Assembly (NCBI RefSeq): GCF_003403075.1 | Contig: NZ_CP031557.1 | Span: forward strand, 1,302,001 to 1,366,000 | Length of the DNA stretch: 64,000 nt | Direction of reading: 5' to 3' | Origin: Flavobacterium psychrotrophum | GTDB taxonomy: Bacteria > Bacteroidota > Bacteroidia > Flavobacteriales > Flavobacteriaceae | Made by a program: the position numbers and the translations under genes | The notes under the pieces: model-generated | What the model was told of the DNA's origin: nothing | Databases searched by the model: none | What the model saw: only the letters and a program-made list of their open reading frames with translations | Part shown: positions 32,935 through 43,677 of the stretch, piece by piece | Layout of the letters: each line of letters starts with the position of its first letter | Position numbering within the stretch: position 1 is the stretch's first letter

Positions 32935-33043
32935 CCAAAGCCATTGTCTTCCAGTGGCTTTGGTTGACTTTGTGTGGAGTGTCATGGATCACAGTCGAAC
33001 ACCTTGCTCCAATTTTGACGTTTTTTGAAACTTTAAAATAAGT
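32935..33043 (+). repeat. Intergenic repeat family, copy A
   Basis: The hairpin CCAAAGCCATTG/CAGTGGCTTTGG (32935-32946 with 32952-32963, loop TCTTC) is followed by a tail shared with the other copies: TGTCA-GGATCACAG, TCGAACACC and CCAATTTTGACGTTTTTTGAA. It starts on the base after the antiporter stop codon, so it can also act as its terminator. Confidence 0.75.
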
Positions 33044-33061
33044 ATAAATATGAACTCAATT

Positions 33062-33150
33062 ACTCCATTGTCTTCCAATGACGTTGTTTGTCATCTATAA
33101 AGTGTTTGTATTACAATTGAACATTTAGTCCCAATTTTAAAGTCGATATA
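33062..33150 (+). repeat. Intergenic repeat family, copy B (degenerate)
   Basis: CCATTG-TCTTC-CAATGA hairpin core, then TTTGTCAT, ATTACA, GAACA and CCCAATTTT in the same order as in the other copies but with many changes. It lies just beyond the 3' end of the metal adaptor gene and about 125 bp after copy A. Confidence 0.6.
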
Positions 33151-33168
33151 ATTATAAAGTAAATCGCT

Positions 33169-34308
33169 TTATTCTTCCTCCCCACTATTCATAGCCTTCA
33201 TAAGTAATGAATAGGCATTTTTAACTACAAGTTTAGATGAAACAGTAATTGTTTCCGACTCAAATTGTTTAAAGCCATCCTGTAAAATACCCGTTTTTAC
33301 TGCTATCATGGTGTAGCTACCGTTACCCTTGTCCTCAAAAACATAGCTTTTGCCTTGCCAGTCTACAATGGCTTCTTGCGGTAAGGCCAATTGCTTTTTA
33401 TTTTTTATGTGAATATTGGCGTTTACAAATAATCCCGGAATAAATACAACATCATAGCGGTAAAGTTTTGCAGTTACAACCGCTGCACGATCGGCATTCA
33501 GGCTATGGTTTATAAACTGAATTTTGGCAGTGTATTTCTTCTCCGGGTTATCGTTGCTGTATACGTCAAGCTGCTGTCCGGTTTTAAGATATTGCACGTC
33601 TTTCTCAAAAGCATTAAAAGTCAGCATCACATCATTCATATCAGTCAGCTCAAAAAGCATCTCTGTTGGCGCTACATACTTACCTACATTCACATTGACC
33701 TTAGAGACTAATCCGCTTACAGGAGATAAGATACTTATTGATTTACTTATATTGGCTGAAGTCAGCCTGCTAACATTTACACCCAATAGTTCAAGCTTTT
33801 GCTTTAAGGAAGCTGTGGCAATACGCTGGGTTTCACGCTCGGCGCTAATTTGCTCAAAAAGCTTATCGCTGCTGGCCTTTTTGGCATTCAGTTCCTTTTG
33901 GCGTGTGTACTCCATTTCTGCCACATTAAACAGCTCTTTAGCTGTAAGATAGTCTTGCTGTAGTTGAATGTACTGCATGTCTTCAATTATTGCTAAAACC
34001 TGTCCTTTCTGAACATGCATGCCGGGTTGAACATTCGTTTTTCGGATATATCCGCCTAAAGGAAAGGTTACATTTACCAAACTTTGCGGAGGTACAGTAA
34101 CCTCTCCCTGCAACTGCACGGTACCGCTCAGTTCCTTTTCTTCTGGAGAACCAACAACTATTCCGGCATTCTTTGCCTGCTCTGGGGTTAGGGTTACAAT
34201 ATTGGGAGCCGAGGCTTGTGTTGTTTCTGCTTTAGTTTCCGTTTCTTCTTTTTTACCACACGATACCAAAGCCAGTATCGCAGCGGTTACTATTATATAC
34301 TTTTTCAT
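33169..34308 (-). CDS. Heavy-metal RND efflux adaptor lipoprotein (CusB/CzcB-like)
   Basis: A 379-residue membrane fusion protein with lipobox LALVSC (Cys17), lipoyl halves (FPLGGYIRKTNVQPGMHVQKG and ILSPVSGLVSKVNVNVGKYV), an alpha-hairpin and a beta-barrel. It links the CusA-like pump and its fused outer membrane part. It is the last gene of the metal efflux operon, 3 nt after the pump. No His/Met-rich extension that would reveal the metal is present. Copper/silver or cobalt/zinc/cadmium remain possible. Confidence 0.9.
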   Translation of the reverse strand: MKKYIIVTAAILALVSCGKKEETETKAETTQASAPNIVTLTPEQAKNAGIVVGSPEEKELSGTVQLQGEVTVPPQSLVNVTFPLGGYIRKTNVQPGMHVQKGQVLAIIEDMQYIQLQQDYLTAKELFNVAEMEYTRQKELNAKKASSDKLFEQISAERETQRIATASLKQKLELLGVNVSRLTSANISKSISILSPVSGLVSKVNVNVGKYVAPTEMLFELTDMNDVMLTFNAFEKDVQYLKTGQQLDVYSNDNPEKKYTAKIQFINHSLNADRAAVVTAKLYRYDVVFIPGLFVNANIHIKNKKQLALPQEAIVDWQGKSYVFEDKGNGSYTMIAVKTGILQDGFKQFESETITVSSKLVVKNAYSLLMKAMNSGEEE

Positions 34309-34311
34309 TTG

Positions 34312-41632: not shown

Positions 41633-41763
41633 GGTTTGTTAGTGCGACGCCCATAAAAGGCGTTTTATCATACCAGTAATTTGTTTCTTTTTTACCTGTA
41701 ATCTGTCTCCGGGCTTTCATTTTCATCTGTTTAATTTTGAATAATCATTTAAACAGTAGTAAA

Positions 41764-42897
41764 ATGGCAATTAACACGCAAAATGACAGTGGTAATTCAA
41801 GGCGGAAATTCATCCAGCAAACTACTCTTGCCGGGGTTGGGTTATTGCTTGCGCCTAACCTTATGTCAGCCGCTGCCCATCATTCAGACAACAAGCCAAA
41901 AAGCAGTAAAAAAGAAAATACTATGAATACACGAAAATTAGGAACATTAGAAGTCTCCGCATTAGGCGCCGGATGCATGAGTATCAGTGCTAATTATGGA
42001 GCAGCAGCAGATAAACAGCAGGGAATTGCAACGATTCGCACCGCTTTTGAGAAAGGCATCACATTTTTTGACACTGCAGAAGTATATGGCCCTTATACCA
42101 ATGAGCAGCTTGTAGGCGAAGCACTCTTGCCAATCAGGAATAAGGTGGCTATTGCTACAAAATTTGGCTTCAATATAGAGAAGGGCGGACTGAACAGTAA
42201 GCCGGAACATATAAAAAAAGTAGTAGAAGAGTCGCTAAAGCGACTAAAAACAGATCGTATAGACCTGCTTTACCAGCACCGCGTAGACCCTAACGTACCT
42301 ATTGAAGATGTTGCAGGAACTGTAAAAGATTTAATACACCAGGGGAAGGTTTTACATTTCGGGTTATCCGAGGCTAATGTAAATACCATTAGAAAAGCCC
42401 ATGCGGTACAGCCTGTTTCGGCCATACAAACAGAATATTCGTTTATGGAGCGCAGTGTTGAGAAAAATGGTGTATTAGCTGTTTGCGAAGAATTAGGTAT
42501 TGGCTTTGTACCGTGGGGTCCGGTAGGTATGGGCTATCTGACAGGCAAGCTGAATGCACAAACAACTTTTGACCAAAAGCTTGATCTGCGAACTACTTTT
42601 GATCGTTTTAGTGCTAAAAATTTGGCGGACAATATGACCATAGTAAACCTGCTAAACAATTTTGCATCAAAAAGAAATGCAACTGCTTCTCAAATTGCCC
42701 TTGCCTGGCTCATGGCGCAAAAACCATTCATAGTGTCAATCCCCGGTACGCGCAATATTCCGCATCTCACAGAAAATCTGGAAGCCACAGCTATTTCGCT
42801 AACACAATCTGATTTACAAGAACTTGAAGCTGAATTTTTAAAAATAAAAGTTTCCGGCGGAAGGATGAACGCAATGCAAATGGCACTTTGCGAATAA
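41764..42897 (+). CDS. Aldo/keto reductase with Tat-type signal
   Basis: About 377 residues from ATG 41764; the frame extends 27 nt upstream to a TTG but the ATG is better placed. The N-terminus has [16 protein letters not shown] (Arg-Arg at about 13-14), a Tat leader ending near MSAAAHH. The AKR barrel starts at [20 protein letters not shown]. Catalytic residues are seen in [12 protein letters not shown] (Asp, Tyr), AIATKFGF (Lys) and LYQHRVDP (His), and [17 protein letters not shown] binds NADP(H). It reduces aldehydes or ketones. An exported NADPH enzyme is odd, since the cofactor is cytosolic; Tat export of a pre-loaded holoenzyme would solve this. Confidence 0.88.
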
Positions 42898-42927
42898 AAT
42901 GACATATTCAATTATAGCATTAAACTG

Positions 42928-43521
42928 ATGAAAAAGGTTTTACTTATCAATACACACTTAACATATCCAAACTGGTCTGAAGGAAGCCTCAATAACGCTT
43001 TTATTCAGGCAGCTAAAGACTACTTTAAAAGTAAAAACTATGAAATTTTAGAAACAAAAGTAGAGAGTGGCTATGATGCCATTGAAGAGGTTGAAAAACA
43101 CCTGCTGGCTGATGTAATTATTTTGCAAACACCTGTAAACTGGTTTGGAGCACCATGGATTTATAAGAAATATGTAGATGAGGTTTTTAACTGTGGGCTG
43201 CAAACCCAAAAGTTTCTTACAGGCGATGGACGAACTAAGGAAGACAGTACCAGACAATATGGTACGGGTGGAAAACTCCATGGGAAAAAGTTTATGGTAT
43301 GCGCTACCTGGAATGCCCCGGCACAAAGCTTTGATAATCCTTTGCAGGAACTGATGCACGGTAAAGGTACAGCTGATTTATTCCTGAATATAACCAGTAA
43401 CTACCGTTTTTGTGGAGTAGAAATTTTGCAGGGCTATAACTCCTTCGACATTTTTAAAGACGGTGATATTATCATCGATTTAAAGAATTATCCAAAACAT
43501 TTAGATCTCTTTTTTAGATAA
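42928..43521 (+). CDS. MdaB-like NAD(P)H quinone oxidoreductase (flavodoxin fold)
   Basis: A 197-residue flavodoxin-fold protein (KKVLLINTHLTYP at the FMN/FAD phosphate site, DVIILQTPVNWFGAPWIYKKY with the quinone-reductase signature, GGKLHGKKFMVCATWNAP). It is expected to reduce quinones or drug-like electrophiles by two electrons in the cytoplasm. It lies 30 nt after the aldo/keto reductase gene in the same operon. Repeat copy E lies 50 nt after the stop and can terminate the transcript. Length is normal for MdaB. Confidence 0.88.
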   Translation: MKKVLLINTHLTYPNWSEGSLNNAFIQAAKDYFKSKNYEILETKVESGYDAIEEVEKHLLADVIILQTPVNWFGAPWIYKKYVDEVFNCGLQTQKFLTGDGRTKEDSTRQYGTGGKLHGKKFMVCATWNAPAQSFDNPLQELMHGKGTADLFLNITSNYRFCGVEILQGYNSFDIFKDGDIIIDLKNYPKHLDLFFR

Positions 43522-43571
43522 AGAAATGTATCTTAAATATGTGCTTTGACACTATTCTGAAGGATTAAAAA

Positions 43572-43677
43572 ACAAGGCCATTGGAATCCAATGGCCTTGT
43601 TTGTCTTTGTGTGGGCTGTCAAGGGTTCGAACACTTTATTTTTTTACTAATTTTGGGAACTTTTAAGTTTAAAATAG
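43572..43677 (+). repeat. Intergenic repeat family, copy E (variant tail)
   Basis: A 13-bp perfect stem (43572-43584 with 43588-43600, loop AAT), then TTGTCTTTGTGTGGGCTGTC, AAGGGTTCGAACACTT and a diverged AATTTTGGGAACTTTT tail. The tail reads like the reverse complement of a tRNA T-loop and acceptor end. It also serves as terminator of the quinone reductase operon. Confidence 0.7.

Follow-up and report, generated by a model that had tools for sequence, protein, structure and literature searches.

The window analysed here, a stretch of 64,000 nucleotides corresponding to bases 1302001-1366000 of the 4.84-Mb chromosome of Flavobacterium psychrotrophum, contains five co-oriented repeats of about 105 bp (copies A to E) with gene modules between them. 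Comparison of these sequences with those of related genomes indicates, with a probability of roughly 85%, that the repeats are attachment sites, in the form of attR-type junctions, used by integrative elements with a tyrosine recombinase directed at the tRNA-Val(UAC) 3' end. The initial annotation had suggested that the modules accumulated by site-specific insertion, and this proposal is supported by the relation of the repeats to tRNA-Val, by the rule of orientation that they follow, and by a junction found in a relative, Flavobacterium sp. Sd200, where two modules are missing and a single hybrid repeat stands in their place.

Read on the minus strand, each repeat has the same layout, with a conserved element end, GCCCAC and a terminator hairpin. 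The model proposed here is that the right end of an element (CAAAATTGG...AAGGTGTTCGACTGTGATCCCTGACA) would be followed by the shared GCCCAC and then by a terminator, which would be either the displaced terminator of the host or the following element's left end. A terminator would accompany each site because a tRNA is cut off from its original terminator when an element inserts at the 3' end of its gene. The hairpin of copy D would serve the site and not its neighbours, so that its position between divergent genes is no puzzle. Because the modules of the window carry no integrase, integrases of the tRNA-Val type, two of which stand beside tRNA-Val genes in this genome, presumably act in trans; with a co-oriented site on each side of a module, one recombinase could excise or add modules.

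Architecture of the repeats and their relation to tRNA-Val(UAC)

Copy A begins near position 32935, B near 33062, C near 39250, D near 40519 and E near 43572, all in one orientation, as previously annotated. On the minus strand, copy A (32937..33040) lies directly behind an antiporter gene and delimits, together with copy B (33062..33143), a gene-less unit of ~127 bp; copies C (39248..39341), D (40517..40625) and E (43570..43673) follow on the same strand. A TGTGG motif, at which the Sd200 junction switches (see below), occupies 32973-32977 in A, 40557-40561 in D and 43610-43614 in E. The tail that had been described as common to all five copies is present in its long form in A (TGTCATGG), C (GGATTACAG) and D only. 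Copy E has a shorter tail, TGTCAAGGGTTCGAACACT, and the hairpin loop GAATC instead of TCTTC, and it is the copy closest in sequence to the tRNA-Val 3' end. Copy B is decayed: it matches copy D weakly (expect value (E) 0.07), it is weak in profile searches, and its counterpart in Sd200 reaches 11 bits. Copy D is the best preserved in the window, and in a whole-genome search copies C and A match it with E values of 6.5e-24 and 1.0e-22, respectively. The 37-base core gave 0 matches in a fuzzy search of 1.6 Mb of shuffled sequence, and Rfam at gathering thresholds gave no match in the window.

The compensatory changes noticed in the stem were borne out in 16 distinct CATTG-type hairpins from several genomes, in which pairing is found in 177 of 192 stem cells (a count that includes one row out of register, and in which kinship between rows was uncontrolled). 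When the 3' arms were re-dealt among the hairpins, the mean was 162 and the maximum 173, so that 177 was attained in 0 of 1000 shuffles. Among 61 copies, typed by simple motifs that leave 14 of them without an assigned hairpin, each of the two main tail types is combined with hairpins of the CATTG, ACTCC, TCATTGA and CCCCAG types. Tail and hairpin thus appear to be separate parts, and exchange between them would give such mixed combinations.

Comparison with tRNA 3' ends, which the initial annotation had called for, identified tRNA-Val(UAC) as the target. A short-word BLAST search of the repeats against tRNA-containing stretches gave an apparent negative that was misleading, since the similarity is short, and it was the alignment of the spacers between integrase and tRNA genes that revealed the match. 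As this alignment pointed to tRNA-Val, the transfer-messenger RNA (tmRNA), whose genes had also been located, was set aside as a target. Over the stretch that starts at GCCCAC and runs into the terminator, copy E agrees with the tRNA-Val region of Flavobacterium sp. SLB02 in 46 of 50 bases, and before GCCCAC in 12 of 16; the SLB02 tRNA-Val continues into GCCCACACAAAGACAAACAACGCCATTGGATTCCAATGGCGTTG. Hairpins of the ACTCC type also stand behind tRNA-Val in other genomes. The idea that the repeat resembles a tRNA end followed by its terminator is therefore retained, with the crossover placed at the last bases of the tRNA and not at its T-loop; the tail, which had been taken as tRNA-like, resembles the tRNA only in part and is mainly the end of the mobile element itself.

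The position of the repeats relative to tRNA-Val follows a constant rule. All 11 repeats in seven regions of other genomes, chosen for the closeness of tRNA-Val and repeat and not for orientation, lie downstream of tRNA-Val in the orientation of the tRNA. In F. psychrotrophum itself, the first tRNA-Val(UAC) gene (tRNA-Val#1, 173.8 kb) has two copies downstream of it, at 231.8 and 239.3 kb, and the second (tRNA-Val#2, 2747 kb) has one, at 2714 kb, all co-oriented with their tRNA. An integrase adjoins each of these two tRNA genes, and the distant copies are presumably the far ends of elements inserted there. A repeat is found within the retrieved flank at 3 of 30 tRNA-Val loci, which are the best matches to a query containing the CATTG hairpin and not a fair sample of terminators.

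The repeat is sparse in the genome and recurs across the genus. Hundreds of unrelated loci would, according to the initial annotation, have spoken against its proposal; a search of the genome with copy D finds seven places at E <= 0.003, namely A, C, D and E and three others at chromosomal positions 231773(-), 239312(-) and 2714067(+), with copy B and further candidates weaker. Among named genomes, 19 stretches contain the core pattern (17 from Flavobacterium, one from Flavobacteriaceae and one from a Chitinophaga metagenome-assembled genome), and viral contigs give 0 matches. That Chitinophaga stretch (L045:4083-4119) is the sole core match outside Flavobacteriaceae, for which contamination or transfer is possible. 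In a genus search, at least 20 of 299 genomes have a match, a lower bound given that at most three candidates were scored per genome. Profile searches find several copies per stretch, and the copies share one orientation in all 31 retrieved stretches with two or more of them at 20 bits or above; these stretches overlap and form 16 clusters, one of which is the Sd200 counterpart of the window. Gene-less units of ~125 bp comparable to the A-B unit are found at two other loci, as tandem copies in L087 and beside tRNA-Val in L216. In 16 other stretches, Rfam gave two tRNAs and one Flavo-1 RNA and no match for the repeat; the Flavo-1 RNA (RF01705, L056:2151-2236) is located near an array.

The Sd200 junction and the integrases linked to the repeats

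Flavobacterium sp. Sd200 is 99.9% identical to window positions 26222-39305 and then jumps to 43567-44071, where the similarity ends (44071..44071, no strand assigned). It lacks the modules between C and D and between D and E, 4322 bp being missing between equivalent points. The single repeat at its junction is a C/E hybrid, equal to C up to 39292 and to E from 43610, so that copy C provides the hairpin half and copy E the tail half. The switch falls inside TGTGG (39288..39292 in copy C, a 5-bp interval with no strand assigned), which is CCACA on the other strand, the bases that end tRNA-Val in its encoded form there. The same TGTGG/GCCCAC is also the switch point of two other comparisons, those with SLB02 and with Flavobacterium subsaxonicum. 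As assembled, the Sd200 difference shows the gain or loss of two modules, which may have proceeded in either direction. The expectation that individual modules would be absent in relatives with one repeat left at the junction thus holds for C-D and D-E; the efflux module between B and C is present in both genomes. Nor are the three modules conserved together in all relatives. The antiporter gene to the left of the array is found in 27 other relatives, 11 of which were retrieved; one of these ends ~1.1 kb behind the gene, and the ten usable ones have neither repeat nor close module homolog, with one of them encoding proteins only 22-34% identical at the place of the modules.

Outside the missing modules, a region of ~62 kb (chromosomal positions 1279350-1346071 here, taking in window positions 1-44071, and 3115-65527 on contig C1 of Sd200) is 97-99.9% identical between the two genomes. 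The upstream flank of tRNA-Val#1 is 67-79% identical, and around another Sd200 copy (C1:781529) the sequence matches F. psychrotrophum only in part, at 69%. Because the array region is so much more similar than the tRNA-Val#1 flank, a recent transfer between the two species probably brought in the DNA that holds the array in one of them.

A link to a recombinase comes from F. subsaxonicum, in which the gene for a 450-aa tyrosine recombinase, a divergent integrase, stands at one end of a five-copy array, with ~270 bp between it and the first copy on the hairpin side. Its closest match in the genus sample is an 89% identical protein encoded in the F. psychrotrophum genome at 174125, beside tRNA-Val#1. 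When the two elements are compared, 150 of 150 bases are identical from GCCCACC onwards and 14 of 40 before it, and in this alignment the F. subsaxonicum repeat occupies the position of the tRNA-Val 3' end. The finding of the same element end on a tRNA and on a repeat is the best evidence that the recombinase would accept the repeat as a target. In Flavobacterium rivuli, the integrase gene beside a repeat (L104:7479-8551) is broken into two frames and corresponds, in decayed form, to the gene that is intact at L100.

Alternative explanations

Several observations weigh against the repeats being attachment sites for tRNA-Val integrases. The array stands away from any tRNA, none having been found in the window, and no integrase is near it: as had been annotated for the window itself, none is visible there, and elsewhere in the genome ~154 kb and ~257 kb separate the array from the closest tyrosine recombinase genes that were found. 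Integrases seldom adjoin repeats in the retrieved flanks of three sets (2 of 10, 0 of 15 and 0 of 30 above 10 bits), and of the 30 loci in the last set, a retrieved subset of the integrase places found, 25 are beside a tRNA or tmRNA and only three beside tRNA-Val; the integrase family has many targets. For the core of copy D, alignment to tRNA-Val requires a gap of 5 bases. The genes of module D-E have 82% identical counterparts in Flavobacterium akiainvivens with a repeat on the E side only, the homology beginning at window position 40730, so that not every module is a neat two-ended unit. The precise presence or absence of modules with a switch in the attachment core is known from one event, that of Sd200, a draft genome whose junction is known from the assembly alone, and TGTGG is one of ten runs of at least 4 bp common to C and E in register, so that the place of the switch by itself is modest evidence.

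Some of these points would also fit old attachment-site relics on which no recombinase now acts, the Sd200 difference having arisen by homologous recombination between C and E. An array with neither integrase nor tRNA nearby, the divergence of B and E, the similarity of C and E over ~95 bp and a switch on just one of ten shared runs are all compatible with such an origin. The longest exact run common to C and E is, however, 11 bp, which is short for homologous recombination, and the switch sits on the very run to which the two other junctions point; recombination between relics is therefore regarded as unlikely. A genome-wide terminator-linked or repetitive extragenic palindromic (REP)-like repeat with no part in gene mobility would account for a terminator-like hairpin on every intact copy and for the covariation of its stems. 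It is very hard to reconcile with so few places in 4.84 Mb, with a tail that is kept while the hairpin type varies, and with the co-orientation of the copies, their position downstream of tRNA-Val in relatives and their marking of a gain or loss, and it is given very little credence. Because the hairpin type varies while the tail is constant, small RNA, CRISPR-like and IS605/REP readings were likewise dropped, no dedicated search being made for them.

It could also be argued that the window array is the remnant of a true integron, with IntI and attC sites, that has lost its integrase, as co-oriented sites lie between accessory modules and the divergent F. subsaxonicum integrase stands at one end of its five-copy array. 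Against a cut-off of 265 bits for integron integrases, though, the integrase of locus L055 scores 40.6 and that at tRNA-Val#1 18.9, and that of L100 has no match; the linked integrases belong to a family found beside tRNA genes, and the site consists of a tRNA 3' end plus a terminator, no attC model having been run. This origin is considered the least credible of all. Attachment sites derived from tRNA-Val remain the preferred reading of the repeats.

Modules, cargo and relation to known systems

The modules of the window measure ~1.3 to 6.2 kb, and their genes run in both directions. Module B-C (33169..38727, minus strand) encodes, according to Pfam, an HlyD-type fusion protein and an AcrB-type transporter; in the latter, a single 1471-aa frame (34312-38727, minus strand) fuses the AcrB-type transporter domain to an outer-membrane-efflux domain. 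Module C-D (39445..40358, minus strand) consists of a DUF3990-like gene, whose Pfam score of 29.0 bits falls short of the 32.2 required, and a gene of 162 aa with no assigned family. Module D-E (40766..43521, plus strand) encodes an AraC-type regulator, an aldo/keto reductase and a flavodoxin-fold oxidoreductase (Pfam). The Pfam search of these modules found no integrase or transfer family.

Other arrays carry comparable cargo. An AraC and FAD_binding_3 pair lies between repeats in F. rivuli (L105:8537-10787), and a FAD_binding_3 gene with a second gene is found at a like place in F. subsaxonicum (L101:1841-3985), which would fit a single module type inserted into both arrays. The copies of another array enclose an HxlR regulator together with a zinc-binding dehydrogenase, those of L110 (6422-11201) an AbiE gene pair with a TOTE-type primase-helicase, and a further array carries an ATPase that matches the NsnB, AriA and GajA defence models. 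In Flavobacterium araucananum and Flavobacterium cheongpyeongense, the genes behind the last repeat are shared, with an Mrr-type nuclease first (L115:5568-8246 and L112:4660-7338), and the content between the repeats differs, that is, one site holds different cargo.

Tandem accretion, in which elements lacking an integrase accumulate at an RNA gene's 3' end, is already known. In the streptococcal ICESt1-type system, cis-mobilizable elements (CIMEs) are integrase-less segments between attachment sites, stacked in tandem at one target gene through site-specific recombination (PMC5704250). The window modules are alike in being bounded by directly oriented sites derived from an RNA-gene 3' end and in having no integration or transfer genes of their own. 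They differ in that the array is not anchored at its target gene, an anchoring seen in the seven regions elsewhere, in the tRNA-Val(UAC) target in Flavobacterium, and in the small size and number of the units, gene-less ones of 0.12 kb and modules of 1.3 to 6.2 kb, many per array. In Dehalococcoides, many co-located direct repeats of the ssrA 3' end separate strain-specific modules, and 15 islands without integration module have been proposed to be cis-mobilizable (PMC3146451). That system relies on a serine recombinase, whereas the integrases linked here are tyrosine recombinases and the target is tRNA-Val; the ~105 bp repeats with element end and terminator, and arrays detached from the tRNA, are also distinctive. 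The likeness to integrons lies in arrays of small co-oriented units with one recombination site each, and in F. subsaxonicum with an integrase at one end, but the recombinase family is another one, the site is of tRNA type, module genes point either way, and the linked integrases tested score far below the IntI cut-off. Tycheposons are tyrosine-recombinase elements at tRNA genes with exchangeable cargo; they belong to another phylum, and the likeness is limited to these general features. A search of the open literature returned no description of tRNA-Val arrays in Flavobacterium, including the consulted portion of work on Flavobacterium columnare islands (PMC5395568), and no annotation or report for this class of 105-bp repeat. 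What is new is the host and target, the detached array, the gene-less ~125 bp units and the terminator on the sites.

A more tentative proposal, which is held to be possible rather than probable, is that integration at tRNA-Val gave rise in flavobacteria to an integron-like platform, in which the recombinase would shuffle integrase-less modules and gene-less ~125 bp units between co-oriented mimics of the tRNA end, in arrays that would be independent of tRNA genes and travel between species. The 105-bp repeats can be read as scars of gene acquisition and may mark the borders of modules throughout the genus, and the Sd200 comparison resolves, almost to the base, a natural case of modules gained or lost in DNA common to two species. 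Should the sites function at a distance from tRNA genes, they would point to a route from tRNA-bound islands to an integron-like array for gene capture.

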